From NCBI RefSeq assembly GCF_900109545.1, contig NZ_FOAP01000017.1:62001-126000 (forward strand): a DNA stretch of 64,000 bases. The letters are read 5' to 3'. The translations under genes and the position numbers were made by a program. Source of the stretch: Stigmatella aurantiaca (GTDB taxonomy: Bacteria; Myxococcota; Myxococcia; Myxococcales; Myxococcaceae). The notes beneath the pieces were generated by a model. That model ran no database searches and was not told the DNA's origin. It worked only from the letters and a program-made list of their open reading frames with translations. Of the stretch, positions 3,672 to 62,790 are shown piece after piece. Numbering within the stretch: position 1 is the stretch's first letter; each line of letters begins with the position of its first letter.

Positions 3672-3676
3672 AGACA

Positions 3677-16268: not shown

Positions 16269-16367
16269 CGCCCACCTGGAGGGAGGGCCCAGGTCCGGGG
16301 GCACACGCGGGGCTCGTCCCAAGGTGCGCCTTCAGGACGCTGGGGTGGGTTACAACACTCTGGCGCC

Positions 16368-17579
16368 ATGGCCTCCTCTTTTCCCAAGCGCCTTCTGGCA
16401 CGCACGCTCATCCCCCTGCTGTTCATCGGGTGTGCCCGCGTCCTCCTGGGGCCCCCCGGGGAGCTGCCCCCCCGCGAGCGCATCGCGGCGGACCATCCGC
16501 TCCTGCGCTACACGGGCCGGTTTGACTTCACCGTGCCGCAAGCCCCGGTGTTCGACTGGCCCGGGGTGAGCATCGAGGCCGCGTTCGAGGGCACCTCGTG
16601 CGCCGTCCACCTGGTGGACGGGAACAACAACTACAACGTCTCGGTGGACGGGCAGCCACCCACGGTGCTGCGCACCTCGGCGCGGGACACGTACGTGCTG
16701 GCCCAGGGGCTCGCGGAGGGCCGGCACACGGTGCGGCTCACGCGGCGCACGGAGTCCGGCTTCGGGCCGGGCACCTTCCACGGCTTCCTCCTGGACAAGG
16801 GCCGCACGCTGGTGCCGCTGCCGCCCGCGCTGGGCCGGCGGCTGCTCTTCATCGGGGACTCGTTCACCGCGGGCTATGGCAACGAGGGGCAGTTGGGCTG
16901 CCAGTTCTCACGGGGCACGGAGAACGTGGAGCGGGCCTACGCGGCGCTGGTGGCCAGCGAGCTGGGGGCGGAGTTCTCCATCCTCGCCAAGTCCGGGCGG
17001 GGCGTGGTGCGCAACTACGCCGAGCCTGGCCCCGTTTCCGAGAAGCCCATGCCCGCGTACTTCGCCCAGGCGCGGGCCGAGCAGGCGCAGCCGCCCTGGG
17101 ACTTCCAGCGGTGGGTGCCCGATGCGGTCGTCATCAACCTGGGCACCAATGACTTCTCCACGCTGCCGCACCCGCCCCGGGAGGTGTTCCTCGCGGGGTA
17201 CGAGGCGCTCATCGCGGAGGTGCGCGCGGCGTACCCGGACGTGCCCGTGCTGTGCGTGGCGGGGCCTCGCATGAAGGAGCCCGGCACGGAGCTCATCGAG
17301 ACGCTCGTGGCGCGGCAGCACGCGAAGGATGGGGGCCGCACGCACCTGGCCCTCATCCACGACACCCTGGAGGTGCCCCACGACTATGGCTGCGACATGC
17401 ACCCGGGCCTCAGCGGCCACCGGAAGATCGCTGGCCAGCTCAAGCCCATCCTGGCCTCGATGCTGGGGTGGCGGCAGGAAGTCAGTCTGGGCGACAGTTT
17501 CCCGGGGATTCCATTGCAAGCCGGGCGGCTGCCCATTACGCCGGGGCCGCCTGCTTGGCCAGCACCCCACCCGAAGTGA
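16368..17579 (+). CDS. CE2-like SGNH carbohydrate esterase, lipoprotein
   Basis: 403 residues with a lipoprotein signal (LLFIGC, Cys22). Two-domain CE2 layout: an N-terminal beta-sandwich (about 45-150; EAAFEGTSCAVHLVDGNNNY) and an SGNH hydrolase domain with FIGDSFTAGYGNEG (nucleophile Ser165), the Gly/Asn oxyanion motif INLGTNDFS and the D-x-H block CDMHPGLSGH. CE2 enzymes deacetylate xylan or other polysaccharides. The last 40 residues are a Pro/Gly-rich tail of no clear role. Outer membrane or surface location is inferred. Confidence 0.8.
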   Translation: MASSFPKRLLARTLIPLLFIGCARVLLGPPGELPPRERIAADHPLLRYTGRFDFTVPQAPVFDWPGVSIEAAFEGTSCAVHLVDGNNNYNVSVDGQPPTVLRTSARDTYVLAQGLAEGRHTVRLTRRTESGFGPGTFHGFLLDKGRTLVPLPPALGRRLLFIGDSFTAGYGNEGQLGCQFSRGTENVERAYAALVASELGAEFSILAKSGRGVVRNYAEPGPVSEKPMPAYFAQARAEQAQPPWDFQRWVPDAVVINLGTNDFSTLPHPPREVFLAGYEALIAEVRAAYPDVPVLCVAGPRMKEPGTELIETLVARQHAKDGGRTHLALIHDTLEVPHDYGCDMHPGLSGHRKIAGQLKPILASMLGWRQEVSLGDSFPGIPLQAGRLPITPGPPAWPAPHPK

Positions 17580-17592
17580 CACGAGGACGCTC

Positions 17593-18027
17593 ATGGCTCC
17601 CATCTCCATCACCCCGCTGTACACCGCCACCGCCACCGCCCAGGGAGGCCGCAATGGCCGCGTCCGCTCGACGGATGGGGTGCTGGACCTGGCGCTCTCC
17701 ATGCCGAAGGAGCTGGGGGGCGCGGGCGGGGCCAGCACCAACCCCGAGCAGCTCTTCGCGGCCGGCTACGCCGCGTGCTTCGAGAGCGCGCTGCGGCTGG
17801 TGGCGGGCAAGGCGGGCAAGAACGTGAAGGAGGCGGCCATCACCGGCTCGGCCACCATCGGCAAGACGCCGGATGGCGGCTTCGGGCTGGCGGTGGAGCT
17901 CAAGGGCAAGCTGCCGGGCCTGTCGCAGGAGGAGGCCCAGCAGCTCATGCACGCCGCGCACGAGGTGTGCCCATACTCCAAGGCCACGCGCGGCAACATC
18001 GACGTGAAGCTCTCCGTCGAGACCTGA
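17593..18027 (+). CDS. ohr: Organic hydroperoxide resistance protein Ohr
   Basis: 144 residues from ATG 17593, with GAGG six bases before. It is a full-length Ohr: both redox cysteines are present (Cys62 in AAGYAACFESAL, Cys126 in EVCPYSKATRGN), as is the family phrase STNPEQLFAAGYAACF. Ohr reduces organic and fatty-acid hydroperoxides with lipoylated protein as reductant in the cytoplasm. No ohrR-type regulator is adjacent. It converges on the next gene with 3 bp between stops. Confidence 0.92.
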   Translation: MAPISITPLYTATATAQGGRNGRVRSTDGVLDLALSMPKELGGAGGASTNPEQLFAAGYAACFESALRLVAGKAGKNVKEAAITGSATIGKTPDGGFGLAVELKGKLPGLSQEEAQQLMHAAHEVCPYSKATRGNIDVKLSVET

Positions 18028-18030
18028 GGT

Positions 18031-19206
18031 CTACTTCGCGCCGCTCACCCAGGTGCCCCAGCCCATGAGCCGGGTGAAGTCCTGGGGCTTGCGCTTGCCC
18101 TGGGCGTCCAGCGTGTCCACGCCCTCGGTGAGGTAGCGGAAGCGGGCGTCGTAGGGCAGCCCCGCGAGCGAGGCGTCCCACGGGTCCGCCGCGTAGGTCT
18201 CGAAGCGGATCCGGCGCACGTTGCCCTCGCTCTCCGGCGTCTCGACGGTGACCGAGGGCACCGCGCGCTCCTGGATGCGGAAGGTGCCCCGCGTGGGGGT
18301 GCCGCCCGCGAAGGGCGGCCAGCCCTCGGTGGGCAGCGCGCCCGTGATGAGCCGCATCAGCCACTCCTCCAGCGGCGCCACCGAGGCCTCGGCGAAGTTC
18401 GGGCAGGCGGGGCCCTGGGAGGGCGCGGGCCCGTCCGCCTGGAGGATGTAGCCGCGCTCGGCGGTGACGCACGTGCGCAGGGTGGTGTCCTCGCCGCCCA
18501 CCTTCGCGCGGAAGTCGAACCACGTGCCGGGCCCCAGTGGCCGCTCCAGGGAGGGGGCCGCGGCGGTGCTGCCCTCGGCGCCCTGGTGGACTTCGAGGAG
18601 GGTGAGCTGCGTGCCGCCGCTGGCGCCAAAGCCCGACAGCGTGACGCTGAGGCTCAGCAGCCCCCGGGTGAGGTACAGCGGCCCGGGCTCGGCCGCGTAG
18701 AGCGAATTGACCAGGTTGCCATCCACCGGCCGCTGGTCGTCGAGGTAGCGCCGGGCCTCCCACTGCCGGCCCGCGGCGGAGAGCTGCTCGAGGCTCTCGA
18801 TGCCCCGGGGCGTCACCTCCAGGGGTCGGGAGGTCTCCATGCTCACCGGCAGCGTCAGGTCCCTGGCCAGCCAGGGGTGGCTGAAGGGCTTGCCCGCGTC
18901 ATCGGTGACGGAGAGCTTCAGCCACACCCACGGCGCCTGGACGGCGGTCACCTCCACCTGGAGCCGTCCCGCGAGCGCCCGAGGGGGGAGGGGACGGCGG
19001 CCGGGGCCTTGGTTGGTGGAGAAAGCATAGACGGCGCGGTCCCCCACGCGGGCCTTGCCCCAGGGCGTGGTGTTGGGCGTGGAGGGGGCCTGGGTGGGGG
19101 GCTCCTGCGGGGGCGGGGCCTCGGGGGCGGGCTGCCGCGTGCTGGCGCAGTGGGTGAGCAGCGCGAGGGCGGCACTGCCGGCGAGGAGGGAGGGGATGAG
19201 GCGCAT
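18031..19206 (-). CDS. Lipoprotein of unknown function
   Basis: 391 residues. ATG 19206 has AGGAGAG five bases upstream and opens a lipoprotein signal ending in LALLTHC (Cys20). A Pro/Gln-rich linker (about 25-50) leads into a beta-rich body with no motif I recognise (GDRAVYAFSTNQGPG, RGYILQADGPAPSQGP, RIRFETYAADPWDAS). It contains several short strands separated by proline turns and only one cysteine pair after the lipidation site. Divergent from the DUF4139 gene, 90 bp apart. Likely a periplasmic-facing or surface protein. Confidence 0.65.
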   Translation of the reverse strand: MRLIPSLLAGSAALALLTHCASTRQPAPEAPPPQEPPTQAPSTPNTTPWGKARVGDRAVYAFSTNQGPGRRPLPPRALAGRLQVEVTAVQAPWVWLKLSVTDDAGKPFSHPWLARDLTLPVSMETSRPLEVTPRGIESLEQLSAAGRQWEARRYLDDQRPVDGNLVNSLYAAEPGPLYLTRGLLSLSVTLSGFGASGGTQLTLLEVHQGAEGSTAAAPSLERPLGPGTWFDFRAKVGGEDTTLRTCVTAERGYILQADGPAPSQGPACPNFAEASVAPLEEWLMRLITGALPTEGWPPFAGGTPTRGTFRIQERAVPSVTVETPESEGNVRRIRFETYAADPWDASLAGLPYDARFRYLTEGVDTLDAQGKRKPQDFTRLMGWGTWVSGAK

Positions 19207-19296
19207 CGGAGCTCTCCTGGAGGGACGCAGGGTGTTTTCCCCGCGGGGGGTTGATACACCGGGGGCCCGCCAGTCCCCAATCTTCCGGAGCAGTCC

Positions 19297-21300
19297 ATGT
19301 CCTCCGTCCTGCCCATCCGCCGCGTCGTCCTCTACAAGCACGGAGTCGGTTACTTCGAGCGGAAGGGCTCGGTGAGCGGCAACGAGGCGCTGCACCTCGA
19401 CTTCAAGGCGCGCGACATGAACGACGTGCTCAAGTCGATGACGGTGCTGGACTTGTCGGGCGGCTCCGTGTCGGCGGTGAGCTACGACTCGACGAAGCCC
19501 CTGGAGCAGCTCCTCCAGGAGGCCACCATCCGGATTCCCGAGTCCGGCAGCCTCACGGCGCTGCTGGGGCAAATCAAGGGTGCGCGGGTGCGCGTGCGCC
19601 TGGGGGCCAAGGAGCCCCTGGAGGGCATCATCGTGGGGCTGGAGCCGTTCGCGGTGGTGGAGGGCAAGGCTTCGGTGATGCGGCCCTTCCTGTCGCTGTT
19701 GGTGGGCGCCTCGCTGCGCACCTTCGACTTGCTGGAGGTTACCGAGCTGGAGTTCCTGGACGATGCCGTGCGCAAGGACCTGGAGTTCTACCTGGCCACG
19801 GTGCTCTCCTCGTACAAGAAGGACAGCAAGCGCATGTCCATCATCACCTCGGGCACGGGCGAGCGAGAGCTGTTCGTCAGCTACGTGGTGGAAGCGCCCG
19901 TGTGGAAGACGAGCTACCGCATCCTCCTGGACGAGCAGAAGCCGCCGCTGCTCCAGGGCTGGGCGCTGGTGGACAACGTGGGCGACGAGGACTGGATGAA
20001 CGTGGACCTGGCGCTCATCGCCGGGCTGCCGGTGTCCTTCGTGCACGACCTGTACAACCCCCGCTACATGAAGCGCCCGGTGGTGCAGGTGCGCACGGAG
20101 GCGGCCGCCGCGCCCGTCATCCCCGAGGAGGCCTTCGGCCAGGCGTATGGCGGGGACGATGACGGGGAGAGCGAGAAGGCCTTCTTTCCCCCGCCGGCAC
20201 CCGCGCCGGCCGCGGCCCCCATGCGGGCCATGGTGGGAGGAGGGGGCCCCCTGGCCCGGAAGGGCGGGCGGATGCGCGAGGTGGCCGAGAAGAGCGTGGA
20301 GGTGAAGACGCTCACCAAGGAAGTCGGGGACCTGTTCGAGTACCGGGTGGACCACCCGGTGACGGTGCACCGCAACCAGAGCGCGCTGGTGCCCATCCTG
20401 CAGCGGCCGTTCGAGGGCCGGCGCGTGCTGCTCTACAACCGGACCACGCGCGAGAAGAACCCCATGGCGTGCATCGAGATGAAGAACACAGCGGGGCTCA
20501 CGCTGGAGGGCGGGCCCGTGACGGTGATGGAGTCGGACACGTACGTGGGCGAGGCGATGCTCGACACGATGAAGCCGGAGGACCGGCGCTTCGTGCCGTA
20601 CGCGGTGGAGCTGAGCTGCACGGTGTCGGTGGAGGACCGGGTGGAGGATGGGCCCGTGTTCCGCGCGGTGGTGAGCCGGGGCGTGCTGTCCGTGGAGTAC
20701 TACCACCTGCGCCGCACGAAGTACTTCGTGCGCAACAAGGCCCCGCGCCCGGCGGTGTTCTTCCTGGAGCACCCGCGCACGGGCTGGGAGCTGCGGGAGA
20801 CGCCGGAGCCGGCGGAGACGACGGACAGCTTCTGGCGCTTCAAGCTGGAGCTGGCCGCCGGGGCCACCCCCGAGCTGATGGTGACGGAGCGCTCGCGCGG
20901 CATCCGCCAGTATGCCTTCAGCAGCATCAACCTGGACGAGGTCTCCTTCTTCCTGAGCTCGCATTATATCGATGCGGGGCTCGCGGAGTCGCTGCGGGAG
21001 ATCATCGCCCTGCGCGACCGCGTCACCACGCTGGCGCGCGAGGCGCAGCAGTTGACCGACGAGCGCGAGCAGGTCTTCAAGGACCAGGAGCGCATCCGCT
21101 CGAACATCGAGTCGCTCAAGACGGGGGCCTCGCAGCGTGACCTGGCCGAGCGCTTCGTGACGAAGCTGAACGAGCAGGAGAACCGGCTGGATGCCATTGG
21201 CGAGGCCCTGGAGCGGCTCGCCGAGGAGCGCATGGTGGCGAGCGAAGAGGTGGCCCGCCGCCTCCAGGCGCTGAGCTACTCCGCGGACCTGGAGACCTGA
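19297..21300 (+). CDS. DUF4139 domain protein
   Basis: 667 residues, no signal peptide. The N-terminal third (VVLYKHGVGYFERKGSVSG, DMNDVLKSMTVLDLSGG) and the body (SYVVEAPVWKTSYRILLDE, GWALVDNVGDEDW) match the DUF4139 beta-rich family (related to mucoidy inhibitor A). A low-complexity Pro/Ala/Gly insert (about 270-315) interrupts it. The C-terminal 100 residues form a long coiled coil (LREIIALRDRVTTLAREAQQ onward). No enzymatic motif; possibly an assembly or scaffold protein. Its 3' end overlaps the opposite gene by 25 bp. Confidence 0.75.
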   Translation: MSSVLPIRRVVLYKHGVGYFERKGSVSGNEALHLDFKARDMNDVLKSMTVLDLSGGSVSAVSYDSTKPLEQLLQEATIRIPESGSLTALLGQIKGARVRVRLGAKEPLEGIIVGLEPFAVVEGKASVMRPFLSLLVGASLRTFDLLEVTELEFLDDAVRKDLEFYLATVLSSYKKDSKRMSIITSGTGERELFVSYVVEAPVWKTSYRILLDEQKPPLLQGWALVDNVGDEDWMNVDLALIAGLPVSFVHDLYNPRYMKRPVVQVRTEAAAAPVIPEEAFGQAYGGDDDGESEKAFFPPPAPAPAAAPMRAMVGGGGPLARKGGRMREVAEKSVEVKTLTKEVGDLFEYRVDHPVTVHRNQSALVPILQRPFEGRRVLLYNRTTREKNPMACIEMKNTAGLTLEGGPVTVMESDTYVGEAMLDTMKPEDRRFVPYAVELSCTVSVEDRVEDGPVFRAVVSRGVLSVEYYHLRRTKYFVRNKAPRPAVFFLEHPRTGWELRETPEPAETTDSFWRFKLELAAGATPELMVTERSRGIRQYAFSSINLDEVSFFLSSHYIDAGLAESLREIIALRDRVTTLAREAQQLTDEREQVFKDQERIRSNIESLKTGASQRDLAERFVTKLNEQENRLDAIGEALERLAEERMVASEEVARRLQALSYSADLET

Positions 21301-52318: not shown

Positions 52319-53260
52319 ATGGCGCCCGTCCAAGCGGGGAGCCGTGGCACGGTGCGAGGAGGCGTGAGCAGCAAGGTGGCGTGGGGCCTGGCGCTGGCCG
52401 GGGCCCTGGGCGTGGCCCTCTGGGCCGGGGCGCGCTCGTCGCGGCCCGCGGAGGCGCCCCCGGCGGTGACGCACCGGGCGGTGCCCGCCGGGCCCGCGCG
52501 CCGGGAGCCCCGGGGCTTCGTGGGCGTCGCCGTCAGCGAGAGCGTGGAGATCCGCGCCCCGTTCGAGGGCCGGCTGGAGCAGCTCACCGTGCGGCCCGGC
52601 GACGCGGTGGCGGCGGGGGCGGAGCTGGGGCGGCTCGATCCGCGCCCCGTGCAGCAGGAGACGGCCATGGCGGAGGCACGGCTGGCGGCGGCGGAGGCCG
52701 AGGTGAGCCGGCTGGAGCTGGAGACGCGCGAGGCGGGGGAGACGCTGGCGCGCTACCTGCGCTCGCCGGCCGGGGCGTTCTCCGAGCAGGAGCTGGCCAC
52801 GGCGCGCCACCAGGAGCAGAGCGCGCGGATCCGCCTCACGGCGGCCCAGGCGCAGGTGCGCGAGCGGCGGGCGCTGCTGGCCCAGTCCCGCCAGCGGCTG
52901 GAGGAGGCGACGCTCCGGGCTCCGGGGGCGGGCAAGGTGGTGGAGCGCCGGGTGGACCCAGGCGGGTGGGTGGCCAGTGGCGCGCTCCTGCTGCGGCTGC
53001 TCCGGGAGGGGCCCGTGCAGGTGCGCTTCGCCATTCCCGAGGAGGCGCTGGGCGAGGTGCGCGTGGGCTCGCCCGTGTGGGTGGAGCTGCCGTCGCTGGG
53101 GCGCACCGTGAAGGGGCACGTGCGGGAGGTAGCGCCCGAGGTGGATGCGGCCTCGCGCATGGTGTTCGCCCAGGCGGCGTTCGAGGCGCAAGGGGAGGTG
53201 GAAGGGCTGGTGGTGGGCACCGCGGCGCGCGTGCTGCCCCACGGAGCGCAGGCCCGCTGA
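52319..53260 (+). CDS. HlyD-family periplasmic adaptor
   Basis: 313 residues. One N-terminal transmembrane anchor (about 19-38) is followed by a biotinyl-like half-motif (EIRAPFEGRLEQLTVRPGDAV), a coiled-coil hairpin (about 115-210, AEARLAAAEAEVSRLELETR onward), the second half-motif (TLRAPGAGKVVERRVDPGGWV) and a beta-barrel domain (VRVGSPVWVELPSLGR). Typical membrane-fusion protein that links an inner membrane exporter to the outer membrane. First of three export genes; a second HlyD-like gene follows after 76 bp and an ABC exporter after that. Confidence 0.85.
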   Translation: MAPVQAGSRGTVRGGVSSKVAWGLALAGALGVALWAGARSSRPAEAPPAVTHRAVPAGPARREPRGFVGVAVSESVEIRAPFEGRLEQLTVRPGDAVAAGAELGRLDPRPVQQETAMAEARLAAAEAEVSRLELETREAGETLARYLRSPAGAFSEQELATARHQEQSARIRLTAAQAQVRERRALLAQSRQRLEEATLRAPGAGKVVERRVDPGGWVASGALLLRLLREGPVQVRFAIPEEALGEVRVGSPVWVELPSLGRTVKGHVREVAPEVDAASRMVFAQAAFEAQGEVEGLVVGTAARVLPHGAQAR

Positions 53261-53336
53261 GGGCCCCGCCGGGCGAGAGATTGCGGGGCCCTCGGGGGGG
53301 GGCTACGCTGGACCTTTCCGGAGGAGAGAGGCCGCT

Positions 53337-54272
53337 GTGGAGGACGAGGGCGCGGGGCTGTTCAGGACGGAGGCGCTCCAGCACTACGCGCAGGGCGGCG
53401 AGCGCGGCGGGCTGTTGAAGCTCTCCCCCCAATGGACGGGCCCGGTGTTCTGGGTGCTGCTCGGGGCGTGCGTCTTCGCGCTCGTCTTCAGTGCCCTCGT
53501 GCACGTGTCCGAGTACGCGGAAGGCCCGGCGGTGGTGCAGCTCGAGGGGCGCATGGACCTGCCCTCGCCCGTGCGCGGCACCGTGGCCTCCGTGGAGGTG
53601 CGCTCGGGCGAGCGCGTGGCCGCGGGGCAGGTGCTGGCCCGGCTGGGCGCTGCGGCGGAGCTGGCCGAGCTGGAGCGCTACGAGCGGGAGTTCGAGCTGC
53701 TGCTGCGCCAGCGCCTGCGGTCGCCCTCGGACGAAGGGGTGAGCCAGGCGCTGGCCTCCGTGCGGGCGCAGCTGGAGCTGGCGCGGGCGCGGCTGGAGCA
53801 GTGGACGGTGCGCGCGCCCGAGGCGGGCATCGTGAGCGACGTGCGCATCCGCCGCGGCCAGCACCTCGCGGAAGGGGAGCTGGTGGCCTCGCTGATGCGG
53901 GAGGACTCCGCCGCGGTGGTGACGGCCATGCTGCCCGGGGAGTACCGGCCGCTGCTCGCCGTGGGCAAGCCGCTGCGCCTGGAGCTGCGCGGCTTCCACC
54001 ACCAGTACCAGGAGCTCACCATCGATGAGGTGGGGGGCGAGCTGGTGGGCCCCCAGGAAGTGCAGCGGGCCCTGGGCCCCACGCTGTCGGCGAGCCTTCA
54101 GGTGAACGGGGCGGTGGTGCTGGTGCGCGCACGCGTGGCCTCCCGCTCTTTCCTGGCGGATGGCGAGCGCTTCCCGTACTTCGATGGGATGCTGGGCGAG
54201 GCGGATGCCCGCGTGCGCTCGCAGCCCATCCTGTTGATGCTCATTCCGGGGCTTCGGGCCGTCTGGCCCTGA
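53337..54272 (+). CDS. HlyD-like adaptor of the C39 ABC exporter
   Basis: 311 residues from GTG 53337, with GGAGGAGAG about eight bases upstream. One transmembrane helix (about 40-60, WTGPVFWVLLGACVFALVFS) is followed by the lipoyl-like halves (DLPSPVRGTVASVEVRSGER and TVRAPEAGIVSDVRIRRGQH) flanking a short helical hairpin (about 105-150), and a C-terminal barrel region. The hairpin is shorter than in canonical HlyD. Nineteen bp separate its stop from the ABC gene, so it should be the adaptor of that exporter. Confidence 0.85.
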   Translation: MEDEGAGLFRTEALQHYAQGGERGGLLKLSPQWTGPVFWVLLGACVFALVFSALVHVSEYAEGPAVVQLEGRMDLPSPVRGTVASVEVRSGERVAAGQVLARLGAAAELAELERYEREFELLLRQRLRSPSDEGVSQALASVRAQLELARARLEQWTVRAPEAGIVSDVRIRRGQHLAEGELVASLMREDSAAVVTAMLPGEYRPLLAVGKPLRLELRGFHHQYQELTIDEVGGELVGPQEVQRALGPTLSASLQVNGAVVLVRARVASRSFLADGERFPYFDGMLGEADARVRSQPILLMLIPGLRAVWP

Positions 54273-54291: not shown

Positions 54292-56487
54292 ATGTCCGAG
54301 TCCTCCCTGTCCCTCCTCGAACGGTTCCCGGTGCTGAAGCGGCTGGGCCTGGAGCCCGCCGGGAAGCGCATTCCGCACGTGCAGCAGGTGAGCGTGTCCG
54401 AGTGCGGCGCGGCGTGCCTCGCCATGGTGCTGGCCTACTTCGGCCGGGACGTCCCCATGGAGGAGGTGCGGGACGTGATGGGGGTGAACGTCAACGGGGT
54501 GAGCGCGCTGGACATCCTCGATGCCGCGCACCGGTATGGCCTGCGGGGCCGGGGCACGCGCCTGGAGATGGAGGACCTGGAGTACCTGCCCAAGGGCTCC
54601 ATCCTCCACTGGGACTTCCGCCACTTCGTCGTCTTCGAGGGGCTGCGCGCGGGGCACGTGGACATCGTGGACCCGGCCATGGGCCGGCGCGCGTTGCCGC
54701 TGGAGCAGTTCCGCAGGCACTTCACGGGCGTGGCGGTGCTGCTGGAGCCCTCGGAGTCCTTCGAGCGGGCCGGGCGCGAGGCGCGCTCCTCCTGGCGCTA
54801 CGTGCGCCACCTGCTGTCGCACCGGGCGCTGCTGGGGCGCATCCTCGTCACCTCACTCATGGTGCAGGTGTTCGCGCTGGGCCCGCCGGTGCTCATCGGG
54901 CTCGTCACGGACCGGGTGATTCCCCGGGGCGACACGGCCCTGCTGTGGGTGCTGGGCGCGGGCTCCGTGGGGCTCCTGCTCTTCCAACTGCTCACCTCGC
55001 TGGTGCGCTCGCACCTGCTCCTGCACCTGCGCACCGAGTTCGATGCGCGGGTGACGCTCGGCTTCCTCGAGCACTTGATGGAGCTGCCCTATGCCTTCTT
55101 CCAGCAGCGCACCGCCGGAGACCTGAGCAACCGCCTCAACAGCAACACCACCGTGCGCGAGCTGCTCACCTCGGGGGCGCTGTCCGGCCTGCTGGATGGG
55201 ACGATGGTGCTGGGGTACCTGGGGGTGCTGCTCGTGGCCAGCCCGGCCATGTGCGCGGTGGTGCTGGTGCTGGGGTTCGCCCAGGTGTCCATCTTCCTCG
55301 TCTCCCGCCGCAAGCAGCGCGAGCTGATGGCGCGCAACCTGGAGACGGAGGCGCGCTCGCAGGCGTACCAGATTGAAGTCCTGGCGGGCATCGAGACGCT
55401 CAAGGCCACCGGCTGCGAGCCCCGGGCGCTGGAGCACTGGTCCAGCCTCTTCGTGGACGTGCTCAACGTGGCGCTGGAGCGGGGCCGGCTGTCGCTGCTC
55501 ACCGAGTCCCTCATGGGCACGCTGCGCCTGGGCTCACCGCTCCTCATCCTGTGCTTCGGCGCGAGCCAGGTGCTCCAGGGCGAGCTCAGCCTGGGCGCCA
55601 TGCTGGCGCTCAACGCGCTGGCGCTCGGGTTCCTGGGCCCCCTGTCCAACCTGGTCTCCACGGTGATGCAGTTCCAGCTCCTGGGCACCTACCTGGCGCG
55701 CATCGACGATGTGCTCGACACCCCCCGAGAGCAGTCCGCGCAGGTGCGGCCGTGTCCGAAGCTGCACGGGGGCATCTCCCTGGAGAAGGTGTCCTTCCGC
55801 TACGCCCGCCAGGGGCCGCTCATCCTGGAGGACATCTCGCTCGACATCCGCCCCGGCCAGCTCGTGGCCATCGTGGGGCGCTCCGGCTCCGGCAAGTCCA
55901 CCCTGGCGCGCCTGCTCCTGGGCATGTACCGGCCGGACACGGGGCGCATCCTCTACGACGGGCAGGACCTGTTCGAGCTGGACCTGCGGGGCGTGCGGCG
56001 CCAGCTCGGCATCGTCATGCAGAACCCGTACGTGTTCGGCTCCACCGTGCGCTCCAACATCGCCCTGGCGGACCCCAGCCTGACCCTGGACGCGGTGGTG
56101 GAGGCGGCCCGGCTGGCGCAGCTCCACGAGGAGGTGCTCGCCATGCCCATGGGCTACGAGTCGCCGCTCGTGGACCAGGGCACCTCGCTGTCCGGCGGGC
56201 AGCGGCAGCGGCTGGCGCTGGCGCGGGCGCTGGTGCGCAAGCCCGCCATCCTCCTCTTGGACGAGGCCACGAGCGCCCTGGATGCCATCACCGAGTCCCA
56301 GGTGCAGCAGGCGCTCTCGGGCCTGTCCTGCACGCGCATCGTCATCGCCCACCGGCTCAGCACCATCATGGACGCCGACCTCATCCTGACGCTGGACGAG
56401 GGCCGGCTGGCCGAGTCCGGCCGCCACGAGGAACTGCTGGCCCGCGGGGGGCACTACGCCGAGCTGGTGGCGGCCCAGCTCCGCTGA
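54292..56487 (+). CDS. C39-peptidase-containing ABC exporter (PCAT)
   Basis: 731 residues. The N-terminal C39 protease has Cys38 (SECGAACLAMVLAYFG), His111 (HWDFRHFVVFE) and Asp127 (DIVDPAMGRR), the catalytic triad that cleaves double-glycine leaders. Six transmembrane helices follow (about 165-450). The nucleotide-binding domain has Walker A GRSGSGKST, signature LSGGQRQRLALARAL, Walker B ILLLDEATSALD and the H-loop HRLST. Such exporters remove the leader and secrete the peptide. The RiPP-like precursor 5 kb away has a GG leader, so it is the likely substrate. Confidence 0.92.
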   Translation: MSESSLSLLERFPVLKRLGLEPAGKRIPHVQQVSVSECGAACLAMVLAYFGRDVPMEEVRDVMGVNVNGVSALDILDAAHRYGLRGRGTRLEMEDLEYLPKGSILHWDFRHFVVFEGLRAGHVDIVDPAMGRRALPLEQFRRHFTGVAVLLEPSESFERAGREARSSWRYVRHLLSHRALLGRILVTSLMVQVFALGPPVLIGLVTDRVIPRGDTALLWVLGAGSVGLLLFQLLTSLVRSHLLLHLRTEFDARVTLGFLEHLMELPYAFFQQRTAGDLSNRLNSNTTVRELLTSGALSGLLDGTMVLGYLGVLLVASPAMCAVVLVLGFAQVSIFLVSRRKQRELMARNLETEARSQAYQIEVLAGIETLKATGCEPRALEHWSSLFVDVLNVALERGRLSLLTESLMGTLRLGSPLLILCFGASQVLQGELSLGAMLALNALALGFLGPLSNLVSTVMQFQLLGTYLARIDDVLDTPREQSAQVRPCPKLHGGISLEKVSFRYARQGPLILEDISLDIRPGQLVAIVGRSGSGKSTLARLLLGMYRPDTGRILYDGQDLFELDLRGVRRQLGIVMQNPYVFGSTVRSNIALADPSLTLDAVVEAARLAQLHEEVLAMPMGYESPLVDQGTSLSGGQRQRLALARALVRKPAILLLDEATSALDAITESQVQQALSGLSCTRIVIAHRLSTIMDADLILTLDEGRLAESGRHEELLARGGHYAELVAAQLR

Positions 56488-56491: not shown

Positions 56492-57502
56492 TCAGCGGCA
56501 GATGGCCTCCAGCAAGTCCAGGGGCTGGAGCGGGAAGGGCGGGTGCGGTGGCTTGCGCGCCTGGATGACCTGCTCGATGAAGCTGTCGCCCCACGTCTGG
56601 GCGATGCCGGGGTCCTCCGCGTAGATGGGGTCCTCCATCGCCGCGTCGAGGGTGATGAAGCGGACGCCCGCCTTCTCATAGCTGGTGAGCAGCGCGTCCA
56701 GGGTGTCGGCCTGGAAGGAGCCCGCGTGCAGCAGCAGCACGTGGCGGATGCGGCGGCCGAACACCTGCTGCGCGGCGGCATCCGCCCAGCGCAGGAAGGA
56801 GCGCGCGGTCTTCTGGTAGCCCTTGCGCAGCGACTCCTGGAGCTGGGGCTTGCCCTGGGCCGCGCAGCGCGCCGCGGCCTCGTTCCACGCCCAGTCCCCG
56901 AAGTCGATGGTCACCTGCGCCACGCGGTAGCCCTTGCCGGCGAGGTGGGCGCGGATGGCGGTGCGGGACTCCGCGTCCACGCCCTCCTGGAGGAAGGGGT
57001 AGCGGAACGTCTTCCATGCGCGCTCCGGGGTACCCGGGCCCGCCAGCTCGCGCAGCAGCGGCTCGTTGCGGTCGATGTCCTGGAGGTACGCCGCGAGCCC
57101 CACCTTCCCGAGGTCCACGTGGGACCAGGTGTGGTTGCCCAGCAGGTTGCCCGCCGCGAGCCACGCTTCGAGGACGGCCCGGTCCGCGGGCTGCTGCTCC
57201 ACGAGCTGGCCGTTGACGTAGCCCACCGCGGACGGCACGCCGTGCTTGCGCAGCGTGGCGTTGATGGACTCGATGACGGCCATGCGCGACACGCCGGGGA
57301 ACGCCGGGCCGTGGCTGGGCAGATCATCGAACGTCAGCGCCACCTCGATGGGAGGCTGGGGCGCGGCTTCGGCCGGGGGCGGGGCGGCGGAGGGCGTCAT
57401 GGGCGTTTCCGGGCGCGCGGTGGCGCAGGCGCAGAAGGAGAGCACCGTGACCGGGGCGAGCCAGCCGGCCAGGCGCCGGAGCACGGGGGACAGCAAGGAC
57501 AT
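56492..57502 (-). CDS. Polysaccharide deacetylase-family lipoprotein
   Basis: 336 residues from ATG 57502, with GAGG six bases before. Lipoprotein-like signal (VTVLSFCAC). NodB homology: LTFDDLPSHG (metal Asp), NHTWSHVDLG (HxxxH), a YPFLQEG-type motif and LLLHAGSFQADTLDALL near the end. It removes N-acetyl groups from a polymer or a small glycan in the periplasm. It lies between the exporter and the first glycosyltransferase of the cluster but on the opposite strand, so it may or may not belong to the same pathway. Confidence 0.8.
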   Translation of the reverse strand: MSLLSPVLRRLAGWLAPVTVLSFCACATARPETPMTPSAAPPPAEAAPQPPIEVALTFDDLPSHGPAFPGVSRMAVIESINATLRKHGVPSAVGYVNGQLVEQQPADRAVLEAWLAAGNLLGNHTWSHVDLGKVGLAAYLQDIDRNEPLLRELAGPGTPERAWKTFRYPFLQEGVDAESRTAIRAHLAGKGYRVAQVTIDFGDWAWNEAAARCAAQGKPQLQESLRKGYQKTARSFLRWADAAAQQVFGRRIRHVLLLHAGSFQADTLDALLTSYEKAGVRFITLDAAMEDPIYAEDPGIAQTWGDSFIEQVIQARKPPHPPFPLQPLDLLEAICR

Positions 57503-57598: not shown

Positions 57599-59035
57599 AT
57601 GCGCGTTGCCCTGCTTGGATTCGGTCCCCACCCCTGGCCCAGCGTGGAGCGGACCCGCCGCTTCTACGAGCGGGCGCTCTCCGCCCGCTTCACCCTGGAG
57701 GTGGTGGAGGAGGGGGCCCCGGTGCCCGAGGGCGTGGACGCCGTGCTCTCCTTCTCTGGCCGCCGGGGTTGGGAGGAGCGGCCCCGGGTGCCGGTGCCCT
57801 TCCTCTTCGCGATGCACGGGGGGCCCATCCTGGAGCAGGAGGCCCTCACCTCGCGGCTGGGCACGCTGGCGCGCTCGGACGTGCTGCTCGTCAACTGCAC
57901 CTCGGACATCGCCATCTTCCGGGAGGTGTTCGCCGGGGAGACGCCGCACCTGTGCCATCTGCCCCTGCCGGGCAACGCGGCGCTCTTCCACCCACGCGAG
58001 AAGGCGGAGTGCCGCGAGCTGCTCGGCATCGAGTCCCATGAGCTGGTGGTGGGCTTCGTCGGCCGGCTGGTGCCGCAGAAGAACGCGCACCGGTTCCTGC
58101 GCATGCTGGCGGAGCTGCGCCGGCGGCTGCACCCGCGCCGCGTGGCCGGCGTGGTGATTGGCAACTACTGGGTGGACTACCCCGTGCTGAGCTACACCCC
58201 CGACTACCCCGGGGAGATCGCCCGCCTCATCTCGGGGCTCCAGCTCACCGACGACGTGTTCTACTTCCCGGCGAACCTGGAGGATGAGGACCTGGCCTCG
58301 GCGTATGCCGCCATGGATGTCCTCATCCACCCCACGCACTCCATCGACGAGAACTTCGGCTACGTGCCGGTGGAGGCCATGGCCTGCGGGGTGCCCGTGG
58401 TGGGCGCGGCGTACGGCGGGCTGAAGGACACCGTCGTCCCGGGAGAGACGGGAGACCTCATGCCCACCTGGGTGACGCGCTCGGGCCTGCGCTCGGACTT
58501 CCTGCGCGGGGTGGACGCGGCGGAGCGGCTGCTCACGGACGTGGCGCTGCGCCAGCGCTTCTCCGAGGCGGCCGTGAGGCGGGCGCTCTCTCATTATAAT
58601 GAGGAGACCTGCGCCCGCGTGCTGTGCGACGCGGTGGAGGGCGCGGTGAAGGCCCGCCGGGAAGGGCCTTCCCGGCCCCTGGTGCTGGCGCCCCGGCCTC
58701 CCATGCCGGAGCCCTCGGGCCTGTTGCCGCCCCTGCCGACGCCCTGGGAGTTCTACGCCCGCGAGGTGCGCCACTACGCGAGCTGCTCTGTGCCGGTGCC
58801 AGGGCCCCGGTCCCGCCTGTCCCTGGCGGCCCCGCTCACCGAGGAGTCTCCCGGGCTCTGGCGGCTGGAGGATGCGGCGTGGCCCGCGCGCTTCCGGCTG
58901 GATGCGGCCGGTCAGGCTCTGGCCGAGCGCTGCCGCGAGCCCGTCACCGTGGCGGAGCTGGAGCGCGAGGGGCTGTGGCACCGCGAGCGGGTGGAGGACT
59001 TCCTCCAGCAGGGGCTGCTCCTGTGCGGAGATTGA
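57599..59035 (+). CDS. GT4 glycosyltransferase with C-terminal winged-helix-like tail
   Basis: 478 residues from ATG 57599. GT-B fold: MRVALLGFGPHPWPS (Rossmann start), VVGFVGRLVPQKNAHRFLRM, and the GT4 donor-site E-x7-E block VPVEAMACGVPVVGAAYGGL. A 50-residue Pro/Arg-rich linker (about 360-400) leads to a separate C-terminal domain (431-478; RFRLDAAGQALAERCREP then TVAELE...VEDFLQQGLLL). Its spacing resembles PqqD-like RiPP recognition elements. That would let the enzyme bind the precursor leader directly. The tail assignment is inference, the GT4 call is firm. Confidence 0.8.
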   Translation: MRVALLGFGPHPWPSVERTRRFYERALSARFTLEVVEEGAPVPEGVDAVLSFSGRRGWEERPRVPVPFLFAMHGGPILEQEALTSRLGTLARSDVLLVNCTSDIAIFREVFAGETPHLCHLPLPGNAALFHPREKAECRELLGIESHELVVGFVGRLVPQKNAHRFLRMLAELRRRLHPRRVAGVVIGNYWVDYPVLSYTPDYPGEIARLISGLQLTDDVFYFPANLEDEDLASAYAAMDVLIHPTHSIDENFGYVPVEAMACGVPVVGAAYGGLKDTVVPGETGDLMPTWVTRSGLRSDFLRGVDAAERLLTDVALRQRFSEAAVRRALSHYNEETCARVLCDAVEGAVKARREGPSRPLVLAPRPPMPEPSGLLPPLPTPWEFYAREVRHYASCSVPVPGPRSRLSLAAPLTEESPGLWRLEDAAWPARFRLDAAGQALAERCREPVTVAELEREGLWHRERVEDFLQQGLLLCGD

Positions 59036-59067
59036 CGGGGGAGGCCCCCCGTGGCTTTGCTCCCCGG

Positions 59068-59934
59068 GTGAGCGCCCGTCCCGAACTGTCCATCATCATC
59101 CCCTGGAAAGACCGTCCCGAGCTCGGCATCGCCCTGCGGCGCAACCGCCGCGTCTTCGTGGCGAATGGCTACGAGGTGCTGGTGGTGAGCTGCGGCGGCG
59201 CCCCGAAGCCCTTCCGGGAGCTGCTCGGCGAGCACCGCTTTCCGGGCCTGCGCGGCGTGGAGCTGCCGGACACCATGTTCAACAAGGGGCTGGCGCTCAA
59301 CATCGGAGCGTCCCTGGCCCAGGCCGAGCGCCTCTTCTTCCTCGATGCCGACATCGTCCTGCGCGGCGACTTCCTGGGCGAGTCCATGAAGCGCCTGGGC
59401 ACGAAGTACTTCCTCACCGTGGACCGCGTCTTCGAGTCCGAGAAGCCCGAGACCGAACGCAGCTCGTACCTGCGCGAGCTGTCCTACGCGATGAGCTTCG
59501 TGGACAACAAGGGCCGCACCGCCCACGTGGAGACCAACCACCTGAACCTGCGCGACGGCAGCCGCAGCGGCCCCGGAATGGTGCTGCTGCGCCGCAAGCA
59601 CTTCGAGGCGGTGAACGGGATGAACTCGGACCTGTTCGGCTGGGGCTGGGAGGACCTGGACCTGCTCGTGCGTCTGCAACTGGAGCTGGGCCTGTCGCAG
59701 CGCAAGCACGGCAACATCGTCCACCTCTCCCACGGGGACGAGCGGAGAGACCTCGGCGGCGAGAGCCGGGGCATCAGCGAGCACCGCAACCTCGCCCGCT
59801 GCCTGGAGAACTACCAGCGGGGCCACTACTGGGGCACGCGCGTGGACGACGTGCAGACGTGGGAGGGGCGCGCCGTCCGGATTGAGCCCGAGCCCCGCAA
59901 GCGGAGCGGCAAGCGCCTCACCCCGGCCGCGTAG
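59068..59934 (+). CDS. GT2-family glycosyltransferase (galactosyltransferase-like C-terminus)
   Basis: 288 residues from GTG 59068 (no good ribosome site is seen). GT-A fold: LSIIIPWKDRPELGIALRRN, DxD metal motif D93-A-D95 (FFLDADIVLR) and a C-terminal WGWEDLDLLVRLQLELG (Glu195-Asp196) as in polymerising glycosyltransferases such as chondroitin synthase-type GT2. FNKGLALNIGAS is also typical of that group. It follows the GT4 gene by 32 bp, same strand, so co-expression is likely. Acceptor could be the RiPP core or a glycan. Confidence 0.82.
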   Translation: MSARPELSIIIPWKDRPELGIALRRNRRVFVANGYEVLVVSCGGAPKPFRELLGEHRFPGLRGVELPDTMFNKGLALNIGASLAQAERLFFLDADIVLRGDFLGESMKRLGTKYFLTVDRVFESEKPETERSSYLRELSYAMSFVDNKGRTAHVETNHLNLRDGSRSGPGMVLLRRKHFEAVNGMNSDLFGWGWEDLDLLVRLQLELGLSQRKHGNIVHLSHGDERRDLGGESRGISEHRNLARCLENYQRGHYWGTRVDDVQTWEGRAVRIEPEPRKRSGKRLTPAA

Positions 59935-61594
59935 GCGCGGACGCCCAGGGCCCCACGGGCACGGTCAACTGGGTGGCCGCCGTGTCGAGCGCCGCGAAGG
60001 TCTCGTCCACGAGCTGCTGGACGCCCTCGGCCACGGACTCGGGCGCCAGCTCCTGGGGGAAGAGCACCTTCAGCCGGCCCCGGCCCTTGGACCAGTCCCC
60101 ATCCCAGCGCACGTCCCGGCCAGGGAAGCGCCGGGCCACGCGCTCCACCAGCTCCTTCACGCGCGGGCCCATGGGGCGCACCGCGTCGCTCTCCAGGTGG
60201 ATCTCCACGCCCACGTCGCCGCCGTAGTCGAGCAGCTCGTAGTGCATGGCGCGCGGCCAGGACGGGGGGCCCATGCGGCGGAAGTGCGGGAAGCCGCCCC
60301 GGGCCTGGAGGTGGGGCGGGGCGTTGCGCGAGTAGCGCGCGACGATGTCCTCGAACTCCGGGCGTCCCCCGGGCGCGGGCGGGGCCAGCGTGTAGAGCCC
60401 TTCCTCCACGGGCGAGGGGCCGCGCGGCTCCAGGGAGACGCCGGCCGGCAGGGGGGGCAGGGCGTCGAAGTCCACGGTGAAGCGCGCGAAGTCCTCCTGG
60501 GTGAGGGCCCGGCCCTCGGCGCGGGCGCGCTGCGCCTCCTGGAGCAGGGTGATGCCGCGGCGGTAGTGGCCGAAGTGCAGGAAGCACTCCTGGAAGTCCG
60601 TGTACGGCAGGAAGCGGGGCAGGGTGCGGTTGAGCCGGTTGGCCACGAAGGCCATGGCGTTCCAGTGCTCGGGCGCGATGGGGTAGCCCGCCGCGTGCGC
60701 CAGCCCCGCGAGCTCGATGAGGTGCCCGGCGTAGTAGCAGTGGTTCTCCAGCGGGCTCTCGATGAGGATCGCCTCGCGAAGCTGGGTCAGCAGGGTGCCC
60801 GGCCCCGCCCGGCCGCCCGAGGCCGCGAGCACGTCCACCTGCTCCAGCACCGCGCCGAGCAGGAAGAGAATGTCGAGCTGGCCCGTCAGGAAGCCCTGGG
60901 CGTCCTCCCGGAAGCCCTTCATGCCGCGAATGCGCGCCGCCGCGGCGCAGAGCCCCTCCGTGAGGTGAACCTTGCGGCAGACCTCGAAGCCGCCGTAGTG
61001 GTGTGCCTCCACGGCGCACGCCAGCAGGGACTTCACGTCGTGGACCGCGTCGCCCATGAAGAAGGGCGCCTGGGCGGGCTCGGGCTCCAGGTAGGCCAGG
61101 GCGAAGAGCAGGTGCCCCAGCTCGATGCCGTCCGTCACGTTGAGCTGGCGGCTGTTGAGGGCGATCTCCCGGAAGGAGGCGCGCGCGCCGGGCAGCGGGT
61201 GGCCCGGGGAGACGCCGGCCATCACCGTGTAGGCGATGCCCTGCCAGGGGTGGAATTCGCCCTCGGGGTCTCTCTGGAGGATGAAGGGGCGCCCGGCCTC
61301 GTTGCGGTGGACGAAGGGCTCCAGGTGCTCCAGCAGGGGCCGGCCCCGCAGCCGCGCGTTGCCCCAGCCATTGAGCAGGTGGCCGGTGTGGGGCAGCGAG
61401 TCGCGCTCCAGGATTTCATCGATGTGCCGCCCCATCATGTGGGCCAGCAGGTCCGACGCCCTCTGGCAGGCGTCCACCTCCAGGGCACAGGGTTCGCGCC
61501 GCATCCGCTCCCGGAAGGCGTCGAACGCCTCTTGCTCACGGGGGGACAGCTCGAAGGGCCACCAGAAGCGGTTGTCGGACGGGGATTCGGACAC
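59918..61594 (-). CDS. Unrecognised 558-residue protein beside the RiPP precursor
   Basis: From GTG 61594, in the only long frame. The sequence is mainly helical. It contains several His/Cys/Asp-rich blocks: HLLNGWGNARLRG, FHPWQGIAYTVMAG, VEAHHYGGFEVCRK, NHCYYAGHLIELAG and CFLHFGHYRRGI. These could be metal or cofactor ligands, but I recognise no family. The last 200 residues are mixed alpha/beta with acidic patches. A GTG at 61663, two bases after the precursor stop, could be an alternative, coupled start. It lies 70 bp downstream of the precursor in the same direction, so it is the strongest candidate for a core-modifying enzyme. It overlaps the GT2 gene end by 17 bp. Confidence 0.65.
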   Translation of the reverse strand: MSESPSDNRFWWPFELSPREQEAFDAFRERMRREPCALEVDACQRASDLLAHMMGRHIDEILERDSLPHTGHLLNGWGNARLRGRPLLEHLEPFVHRNEAGRPFILQRDPEGEFHPWQGIAYTVMAGVSPGHPLPGARASFREIALNSRQLNVTDGIELGHLLFALAYLEPEPAQAPFFMGDAVHDVKSLLACAVEAHHYGGFEVCRKVHLTEGLCAAAARIRGMKGFREDAQGFLTGQLDILFLLGAVLEQVDVLAASGGRAGPGTLLTQLREAILIESPLENHCYYAGHLIELAGLAHAAGYPIAPEHWNAMAFVANRLNRTLPRFLPYTDFQECFLHFGHYRRGITLLQEAQRARAEGRALTQEDFARFTVDFDALPPLPAGVSLEPRGPSPVEEGLYTLAPPAPGGRPEFEDIVARYSRNAPPHLQARGGFPHFRRMGPPSWPRAMHYELLDYGGDVGVEIHLESDAVRPMGPRVKELVERVARRFPGRDVRWDGDWSKGRGRLKVLFPQELAPESVAEGVQQLVDETFAALDTAATQLTVPVGPWASAPTRPG

Positions 61595-61619
61595 GGGCTC
61601 GGCTCGGAAAGGGGCAAGA

Positions 61620-61656
61620 GGGCTTTCGCCCGGGAAGAAGCTCCCGGGGAAAGCCC
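61620..61656 (-). promoter_or_regulatory. Strong hairpin after the precursor stop codon
   Basis: GGGCTTTC-CCCGGG pairs with CCCGGG-C-GAAAGCCC: a 14-bp stem with one bulged base and an 8-base loop. It starts 8 bases past the stop at 61665. Only TCTTG follows, not a full T-tract. Such a partial terminator or RNA-stabilising hairpin is common between a peptide precursor gene and its biosynthetic gene and makes precursor transcript more abundant. Confidence 0.6.
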
Positions 61657-61664
61657 AGGACACA

Positions 61665-61829
61665 CTACTTGGACACGTCGGGCAGCTGGGGCTGCTCACA
61701 GCAGCCCTGGGTGCAGCAGCCACGGATGAGGGCTCCGCCCACGGTCTTGGACAGATCCTCACGGGTCAGCTTGCGGCCAGGGGTACGGCCCTGGAACTTC
61801 TCGTTCTGGTCGATCTTCTTGTCGCTCAT
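61665..61829 (-). CDS. RiPP-like precursor peptide with GG leader and Cys-rich core
   Basis: 54 residues from ATG 61829; AGGAGG lies eight bases upstream, a near-perfect ribosome site. The N-terminal part is charged and polar (MSDKKIDQNEKFQGRTPGRK). The leader end LTREDLSKTVGG has the helix and double glycine (Gly31-Gly32) recognised by C39 peptidases. The 22-residue core ALIRGCCTQGCCEQPQLP plus DVSK contains four cysteines as a tandem GCCxQ repeat (Cys38, 39, 43, 44). Only Thr40 and Ser53 are hydroxylated. I know of no named family with this core. The PCAT exporter, three glycosyltransferases and an unknown large protein lie around it. Confidence 0.75.
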   Translation of the reverse strand: MSDKKIDQNEKFQGRTPGRKLTREDLSKTVGGALIRGCCTQGCCEQPQLPDVSK

Positions 61830-61884
61830 CGCATGCGCCTCCTTTCAAGGTCGCCCGGTGACGCTAAGGGAAGCTCTGGGAAAG

Positions 61885-61900
61885 GGTCAATCCGTTGACC
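61885..61900. promoter_or_regulatory. GGTCAA/TTGACC dyad between precursor and third glycosyltransferase
   Basis: A perfect 6-bp inverted repeat with a 4-base loop in the divergent promoter region. Each arm is a TTGACC -35-like hexamer for one direction. On the precursor side a TAGCGT -10-like box lies 18 bp away, the better of the two promoters. It could be an operator that switches both genes. Confidence 0.4.
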
Positions 61901-61929
61901 TGGAAGACGAGGCCCGCCGAAATGCTCCC

Positions 61930-62790
61930 ATGGACACGGAACGGCGGGACGAGCAAGCGCACCGGGCACCTGTGATGGCTTTCACCATCATGCATGCGGC
62001 GTTTGACACCAGCCGCTCGGGAATGGTGCGGCGTCTGGAGGAAACCCTACGCGCGGAGCTGGGAAGCGGCGACCGGCTGCATGTGGAGCGTGACACCGTG
62101 CGGCGCGGCGTCTGGTCCGTGGCGAGCGCCTGCTGGGAGTGGGGCATCGCGCAGGCCGCCCAGGGCATCACCCACGTGGTGCTGCTCAACGACGATGCCG
62201 AGCCCTGCCCAGGCTTCGTGGAGGCGGTGAGGCGGGCCCTGGCTGCACGCCCCATGCACCCGGTGTGCTTTTATTCCAACCACGAGACGGCCCTCCTGGC
62301 CTACGAGCAGGGGGATGCGTGGTGGACCTCCGATGATGGCCTGGTGGGCGTCACGTGTGCGCTGCCCGTGGCGCTGGCCCGGGACTTCCTGGCGTGGGAG
62401 CGGGTCTCCTTGGTGGAACGTCCCTTCCCAGGAATGCCCGACGACGCGCGCCTGAACATCTGGGCCATGGCCCATGAACGCCCCATCTGGCATGCCCGCG
62501 GGCTGGTGGAGCACGGCGCGCCGGCCGCGAGCCTCGTGGGCAATGACGGCCACGAGGGACGGCGCTCGCTCACGCCGGTGCCCGCCACGCGCGAGGAGGC
62601 GCTGGCCATCGACTGGAGCCAGGGCCTCGAAGCGCCCCTGCATGACCTGGTGTACGGACGTTCGCCCATCCATTTGCTCCACGAGGTGAAGCCCGAGGTG
62701 CGTGAGCGCATGGGGCTGGAGCGCATCGTTGACCAGCTCTGGGGCGAAGAGGCCCCCCAGGCCCGCGCCTTCTACGGACGGAAGCGCTGA
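61930..62790 (+). CDS. GT-A-type glycosyltransferase, divergent from the RiPP precursor
   Basis: 286 residues from ATG 61930; ATG 61975 is an alternative. No ribosome site is obvious for either. THVVLLNDDAEPCPGFVEAV has an NDD metal motif (87-89) like the DxD of GT-A enzymes, followed by a donor/acceptor pocket region (VCFYSNHETALLAYEQG, DGLVGVTCALPVALARDF, PGMPDDARLNIWAMAHERP). It is a third, unrelated glycosyltransferase of the cluster, transcribed away from the precursor. Family assignment is moderate. Confidence 0.65.
   Translation: MDTERRDEQAHRAPVMAFTIMHAAFDTSRSGMVRRLEETLRAELGSGDRLHVERDTVRRGVWSVASACWEWGIAQAAQGITHVVLLNDDAEPCPGFVEAVRRALAARPMHPVCFYSNHETALLAYEQGDAWWTSDDGLVGVTCALPVALARDFLAWERVSLVERPFPGMPDDARLNIWAMAHERPIWHARGLVEHGAPAASLVGNDGHEGRRSLTPVPATREEALAIDWSQGLEAPLHDLVYGRSPIHLLHEVKPEVRERMGLERIVDQLWGEEAPQARAFYGRKR

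Follow-up and report, generated by a model that had tools for sequence, protein, structure and literature searches.

A 54-codon gene on the minus strand of the window, the whole 64-kb stretch of DNA analysed here, encodes a short peptide whose frame, leader and core are conserved and which occurs, in all six loci compared, with the same three larger genes. These stable partners are a GT4 glycosyltransferase, a GT2 glycosyltransferase and the directly downstream gene for a 558-aa protein. We consider it fairly probable that the peptide is the start of a rare glycosylated RiPP, in which leader-guided glycosylation by GT4 and GT2 would be joined by a step of the 558-aa protein, leader removal and export. 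That the core is glycosylated is a conclusion we draw with moderate confidence, and its exact chemistry is proposed with low confidence. The central claim of the initial annotation, that the frame encodes a RiPP-like precursor, unannotated and with a core of unfamiliar type, is well borne out by the conserved frame, leader and core together with three co-occurring partner genes. The locus has two features expected of a RiPP: a short precursor with conserved leader and core, and co-encoded enzymes that co-occur with it.

Characterized glycosylated RiPPs are few, and this cassette links a short core, two glycosyltransferases and a protein of no assigned family. It is kept across lineages at about 50% protein identity, and two of the genomes carry genes for an activated heptose-like sugar. 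The four-gene set is compact enough for reconstitution in E. coli, which would address GT4 activity on a ribosomal peptide, the modified residue, the sugar and the role of the toroid-like protein.

The precursor gene and its conserved leader and core

The precursor and its closest elements are:

61665-61829, minus strand: gene for the 54-aa precursor peptide (five other loci hold homologous frames; codon-level constraint)
61734-61829, minus strand: leader, residues 1-32, with RTPGRKL and a double glycine at 31-32 (10-precursor alignment)
61698-61721, minus strand: core motif GCCTQGCC (10-precursor alignment; DNA-pattern search)
61838-61843, minus strand: ribosome-binding site AGGAGG, 8 nt 5' of the ATG
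61620-61656, minus strand: strong hairpin between the precursor and the 558-aa gene (MFE -30.7 kcal/mol, z -2.3)

The gene runs from an ATG to a TAG and encodes MSDKKIDQNEKFQGRTPGRKLTREDLSKTVGG-ALIRGCCTQGCCEQPQLPDVSK, in which the leader ends in KLTREDLSKTVGG and the core is ALIRGCCTQGCCEQPQLPDVSK. The 54-codon frame and its AGGAGG spacing, noted earlier with no strand given, are confirmed, and the strand is minus. AAGGAGG or AAAGGAG also lies 5' of each of eight other precursors (first L022 copy excluded). The 70-base gap to the 558-aa gene, on the same strand, contains the hairpin, which has no U tract and which 3 of 200 shuffles equalled in stability. It is a possible attenuator, and its position 3' of the precursor would fit excess precursor synthesis. 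In 61500-62100 we found neither a sigma-70-type promoter nor a terminator consensus; the 64-kb window has no tRNA, and a search from 9-base seeds gave no repeats of at least 10 bases at the precursor gene (the hairpin likewise went unlisted there).

The window is G000:C17:62001-126000, and its genome (9.37 Mb, 99.99% complete) holds no second good copy; three further matches, at E 0.2-3.3, lie inside larger frames. The pattern CC-x(1-5)-CC matches three times across the six frames of the window; judged by eye, only the match in the precursor follows a leader-like frame. Among 96 genomes of the family, the precursor was found in four (E<=0.01): the window's, G038 from the same genus, and G004 and G007 from another genus, these last two with two copies each. 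Searching a named genome collection with an alignment of the 558-aa protein brought in two metagenome-assembled genomes (MAGs), with that protein alone, and not the peptide, as the query. They are L022 ('Acidobacteria bacterium isolate MAG45'; 54% identity in the 558-aa protein) and L023 ('Deltaproteobacteria bacterium isolate P_S1_bin.14'; 50%). Near the 558-aa gene, L022 has three precursors (ending at 16431, 16660 and 16925) and L023 has one (8990-9127).

Conservation of the frame had been put forward as the way to check the gene, and like leader and core motifs are present in all 10 peptides from the six loci. Invariant in every peptide are R19, K20 and L21 of the leader (RKL, mostly within RTPxRKL) and I35, G37, C38, T40, Q41, C43 and C44 of the core. 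With residue 39 either C or T and residue 45 either E or D, the shared core is I-x-G-C-[C/T]-T-Q-x-C-C-[E/D]. Its cysteines form adjacent pairs within 7 residues, and three of them are invariant. Two copies stop right after GCCE, so the C-terminal tail is dispensable. The core had also been described as a tandem GCCxQ repeat, and this part fell: the second Q is absent at that place in all copies outside the window's genus, and the alignment of 10 precursors rejects the 5-residue repeat as the core unit. As aligned, the conserved unit is GC[C/T]TQxCC[E/D], and the GCCxQ repeat is a coincidence of the window's genus.

Codon changes among the precursors fall mostly at third positions. Over 21 alignable codons, comparison of the window's copy with the five copies of G038, G004 and G007 shows 2-5 synonymous and 0-2 non-synonymous changes; with the four MAG copies, the counts rise to 8-9 and 5-7, respectively. 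Along the whole frame, five bases separate the window from G038: four of these are third codon positions and the fifth is a second position. We also searched 189 genomes, drawn from a larger set of the phylum, with a degenerate DNA pattern for the core, which matched eight places. Six of the eight are the precursors of the four genomes, and the other two encode GCRTQRCC and GCRTQTCC; the reversed pattern gave 15 scattered matches in the 189 genomes. We have high confidence that the precursor at 61665-61829 is a real gene, beyond chance.

Stable partners and lineage-specific neighbours

The partner genes lie downstream of the precursor:

59918-61594, minus strand: 558-aa protein with a GTG start, a candidate modification enzyme that co-occurs with the precursor
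57599-59035, plus strand: GT-B glycosyltransferase of family GT4, MshA/BshA/PimB'-like and extended by an extra domain at its C-terminus (Pfam, Foldseek)
58796-59032, plus strand: C-terminal domain of GT4, candidate leader-binding (RRE/PqqD-like; structure model)
59065-59934, plus strand: GT2-type glycosyltransferase with a Glyco_transf_7C region (Pfam; six of six loci)

The two glycosyltransferase genes, on the plus strand, converge on the minus-strand 558-aa gene. By tblastn (E<=1e-4) over the 64 kb of the window and about 20 kb of each other locus, the cassette of precursor(s), 558-aa gene, GT2 and GT4 is present in all six loci. Its three larger proteins show about 47-62% identity to the two MAGs, and the flanking genes differ between loci. 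The L022 copy of GT4, with 240 of 478 residues in its tblastn match, seems frame-broken in the MAG.

In the family, the 558-aa protein (E<=1e-5) and GT4 (E<=1e-60) are found in the same four of 96 genomes as the precursor. Of the seven genomes in the window's genus, five gave no match to any of the three at these cut-offs. Across the phylum, the 558-aa profile matched 6 of 195 genomes, four at full length and two through the C-terminal part alone. Among 396 genomes drawn from a larger group of L022's phylum there were three matches, full length in both MAG genomes and confined to the C-terminal part in G465. The search of 195 genomes had listed neither MAG genome, and the system therefore probably extends over two phyla. 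The 558-aa protein had no match among PLSDB plasmids.

This recurrence bears on a reading in which the peptide binds a metal or has a redox role: its CC-x3-CC core would coordinate the metal or be locked by disulfides, and the glycosyltransferases would come from an unrelated surface-glycan locus. The core does contain three or more closely spaced cysteines, GT2 occurs in G036 and G037 without other cassette genes, and glycosyltransferases encoded next to a peptide could act on a cell-surface glycan instead. We nevertheless judge this reading quite unlikely, as GT4 and GT2 accompany the precursor in six of six loci at the divergence given above and amid different flanks, and the invariance of the core reaches T and Q, residues for which a simple set of cysteine ligands would have no need.

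G036 and G037 belong to the window's genus, lack the precursor, the 558-aa gene and GT4, and keep GT2 at the matching place (L057 8562-9446 and L059 7780-8664, respectively), where it adjoins a homologue of the 51733-52251 gene. This suggests either a remnant left after loss of the other genes or an independent role.

Other neighbours are confined to particular lineages:

54292-56487, plus strand: C39 peptidase-ABC exporter (best NCBIfam model NHLM_micro_ABC1, under that model's cut-off)
52319-54272, plus strand: two HlyD-type adaptor genes, one at 52319-53260 and the second inside 53145-54272
61972-62790, plus strand: unassigned gene, GT-A glycosyltransferase-like by eye, divergent from the precursor

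A double-glycine leader next to a C39 exporter was part of the initial case for a secreted modified peptide. The double glycine is present in the four window-type genomes, which account for the 6 of 10 precursors that have it, and absent from both MAG loci (none of four precursors), so cleavage at this site is not a general processing step. The exporter, together with the HlyD genes, is near the precursor in two of six loci, both in the window's genus, but not in the other four, read over about 20 kb each. DNA like the exporter gene (66-70% identity) also occurs in other genomes of the genus without the peptide. The two clues are lineage-specific, and at these frequencies the pair was rejected as a defining feature. 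Because neither is stable, the usual search clues miss the stable features of this precursor family, and the GC[C/T]TQxCC core with the 558-aa gene is the better handle for new members.

The true start of the second HlyD gene is probably near 53265. L022 carries two ABC genes without a Pfam C39 domain, and a prolyl oligopeptidase gene is also present there. The 61972-62790 gene has no Pfam or NCBIfam match and, among the six loci compared, is at the precursor locus only in the window's genus. A polysaccharide deacetylase gene lies inside the cluster (56492-57499, minus strand); it is matched in the G038 and G004 loci, with no match in the G007, L022 and L023 loci.

The partner proteins and the sugar

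The best PDB sequence matches of GT2 are to beta-4-galactosyltransferase 7; the search gave 10 sequences at E<=0.1, mostly beta-4-galactosyltransferases, with no SunS-type enzyme among them. The structure model of GT4 matches MshA, BshA and PimB' by Foldseek, although the model, built on a 3-row alignment, is poor overall (pLDDT 54.6). Its structural matches, in a VIA list that covers residues 1-354 only, include peptide-bound SdgB and the S-glycosyltransferase LmbT, and many other GT4 enzymes match as well as or better than LmbT. A DxD motif (LDAD) in GT2 and an E-x7-E motif in GT4, which we take to be those of their families, are readable in the sequences.

GT4 carries about 110 extra C-terminal residues. 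In the model, the last 79 residues form four strands, three helices and a strand (b-b-b-b-a-a-a-b, residues 406-477), with block-mean pLDDT of 79-93 from residue 401. RRE domains, which are PqqD-like, have a winged-helix fold of three strands followed by three helices, an order that the modelled one resembles. An hhalign comparison with 13 of 17 PqqD matches aligned this part at a weak score (Prob 13, E 0.0022), and the domain in the window has no Pfam or NCBIfam match. We regard it as a candidate leader-binding domain.

Neither Pfam nor NCBIfam matches the 558-aa protein up to E 1, its alignment reaches a best E of 0.3 against PDB sequences, and its model has no Foldseek match at E<=0.001. 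That model (pLDDT 74.4, pTM 0.71; three-row alignment) comprises an alpha/alpha-toroid N-terminal domain and an alpha/beta C-terminal domain. The helical domain, at about 36-364, aligns with alpha/alpha-toroid proteins, the best VIA match being a squalene-hopene cyclase entry from Cystobacter (Z 15.2, rmsd 3.7, 254 residues); AprG, transcobalamin, GH105 and sugar epimerases stand 1-3 Z units behind. Since mostly helical models without a clear match typically reach a best Z of 14, and since Foldseek returned nothing, the match is a statement about fold at most. Six sequences share many invariant His and Cys residues, for example H198, H199, C206, H210, H285, C286, H291, H340 and H343.

Two other genomes (G123 and G122) encode a 402-aa nuclease-like protein that shares the C-terminal part of the 558-aa protein; in G465 this part stands alone, and the domain was accordingly rejected as a clue to RiPP function. 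The 402-aa genes lie at L029 6795-8003 (G123) and L030 1850-3058 (G122). Weak matches to PADLOC PDC-S11 and Pfam NERD were obtained for the L029 copy, which by eye sits among methylase-like and integrase-like frames, in what is perhaps a defence island.

Genes that could supply a sugar accompany some of the loci. A SIS gene is present in three of six (G004, G007 and L023), and gmhA is the best NCBIfam model for the two SIS proteins scanned. G004 and G007 each also have a GHMP kinase, with HddA as the best NCBIfam model, and a fusion of a nucleotidyltransferase with a HAD kinase whose models include mannose-1-phosphate guanylyltransferase, GmhB and HddC; kinase and fusion are absent from the window. 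None of these sugar genes scores above the NCBI equivalog cut-off for any heptose enzyme. Activities of the gmhA, HddA, GmhB and HddC types together make up steps of nucleotide-heptose synthesis. Because the models cover these steps, our reasoned guess is that the sugar is a heptose, and where the heptose genes are present it is probably a nucleotide-activated one.

A proposed pathway and its relation to known systems

We infer the identity of the sugar, the linked residue, leader binding, the reaction of the 558-aa protein, export and function from these data, and picture the pathway as follows. The RKL leader would be recognized by the pathway enzymes, most simply through the C-terminal domain of GT4. 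GT4 and GT2 may next decorate the core with one or more sugars, with the invariant Thr or a Cys as acceptor: GT4 would glycosylate that residue, and GT2 would extend the sugar or add a second one. An S-linkage is attractive because one GT-B enzyme, LmbT, is known to attach a higher sugar, activated with GDP, to a thiol; the data leave Thr and Cys undecided. The alpha/alpha-toroid protein would modify the core or its sugar further. In the window's genus, the double glycine and the exporter neighbourhood point to leader removal at that site and export by the C39 exporter; elsewhere other means would remove the leader, after which the product would leave the cell.

A fuller version of this glycosylated-RiPP reading would make the system a new RiPP class. 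In it, a heptose-derived sugar sits on an adjacent Cys or the Thr of GC[C/T]TQxCC, GT4 installs the sugar by way of a built-in leader-binding domain, GT2 elaborates it, and an undescribed family of alpha/alpha-toroid enzymes performs a new core modification. We think this version unlikely as a whole.

The invariant Thr lies N-terminal to two cysteines in all 10 cores, an arrangement that would also suit a lanthipeptide-type product, in which the Thr is dehydrated, a Cys adds to give methyllanthionine, and sugars follow later. L022 speaks for this idea. Its cores carry an extra Thr (GCTTQKCC, GCTTQCCC), its three precursors adjoin genes for a LanB-type dehydratase and a radical SAM protein, and a LanC-like gene lies about 12 kb off; it is the only one of the loci read with genes of these three kinds nearby. 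Against the idea, neither Lant_dehydr_N (PF04738) nor LANC_like (PF05147) has a match in the window's genome, for all the completeness of that genome. As far as these two models reach, class I-IV enzymes are therefore not the shared chemistry, and as a shared mechanism this was ruled out. G038 and the second MAG genome also lack a Lant_dehydr_N match and have one and three LANC_like matches, respectively. Over the six genomes, PF04738 occurs in three and PF05147 in five, and among the loci read they lie near precursors in L022 alone. We therefore consider a lanthipeptide-type product very unlikely. In L022 itself (16237-21212), the three tandem precursors are followed by the radical SAM/SPASM gene, on the opposite strand, and the LanB-type dehydratase, and the LanC-like gene is at 2775-4250; this locus is a possible hybrid of the precursor system with lanthionine chemistry. 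Class I lanthipeptides thus resemble the system through the LanB- and LanC-like genes near the L022 precursors and differ from it in the window's genome, which matches neither enzyme family.

The peptide might also act as a scaffold or primer: a small molecule or glycan would be built up on it and later released, and the peptide would not itself be the secreted product. A very short conserved core, a tail absent from the two copies ending in GCCE, and sugar genes and two glycosyltransferases around the precursor would agree with this. Yet the Lant_dehydr_N search of the window's genome recognized no PEARL-type amino-acid-adding enzyme, and the C39 exporter and double glycine of the window's genus better fit a secreted peptide; we give the scaffold reading little credence.

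The glycosylated peptide that we favour is most naturally compared with the glycocins (sublancin, glycocin F, thermoglycocin). By analogy, we read the system as one that may work like a glycocin, with no claim that it is one. Alike are the short Cys-containing precursor with a glycosyltransferase, the C39 peptidase-ABC exporter (here in the window's genus only) and a sugar on Cys or Ser/Thr as the likely modification. Peptide S/O-glycosyltransferases of the SunS/ThuS type are GT2 enzymes, and glycocins have a cysteine spacing typical of nested disulfides. Judged by its letters, the present core does not have the nested-disulfide arrangement. It has instead about 10 conserved positions with adjacent cysteines, and the accessible text of PMC12457901 describes two nested disulfides in a longer core for glycocins and thermoglycocin as likewise without a double glycine. 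The system further departs from glycocins in having two glycosyltransferases, one a GT4 with an extra domain, a GT2 nearest in PDB sequence to the galactosyltransferase named above, and the additional 558-aa toroid-like protein.

Fusions of glycosyltransferases to RRE domains were noted by RRE-Finder, with PF00535 (GT2) named, in the accessible text of PMC7470986 and PMC12710340. Here too a glycosyltransferase is fused to a small domain that may bind a leader, but the enzyme is a GT4 and the RRE assignment of the domain is that of a candidate. Since such fusions had already been noticed, a glycosyltransferase guided by a leader would be a variation on something already anticipated. LmbT and CcbT of lincosamide biosynthesis share with GT4 the GT-B fold, and LmbT is among its structural matches. 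The available portion of PMC12945683 describes LmbT as a GT-B enzyme joining a GDP-activated higher-carbon sugar to a thiol, the acceptor of LmbT/CcbT being the small thiol ergothioneine and not a peptide.

The precursor cluster has probably not been described before. In a literature collection that covers few subscription papers, and is no proof of absence, the CCTQGCC core was not found, nor, in the same collection, were RiPP, glycosylated, heptose and precursor peptide found together. Among the titles and opening lines of abstracts listed, there was no system with this make-up of precursor and 558-aa partner.

Elsewhere in the window's genome, L058 (G000:C8:168000-187000) holds, within about 9093-12980, a relative of GT2 with 76% DNA identity. 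It adjoins two radical SAM/SPASM genes and a gene that by eye resembles a GT1-type glycosyltransferase, and the region is possibly another peptide-modifying cluster. GT2 thus occurs without the other cassette genes in two genomes of the genus and has a relative beside radical SAM genes, so it may have other substrates.
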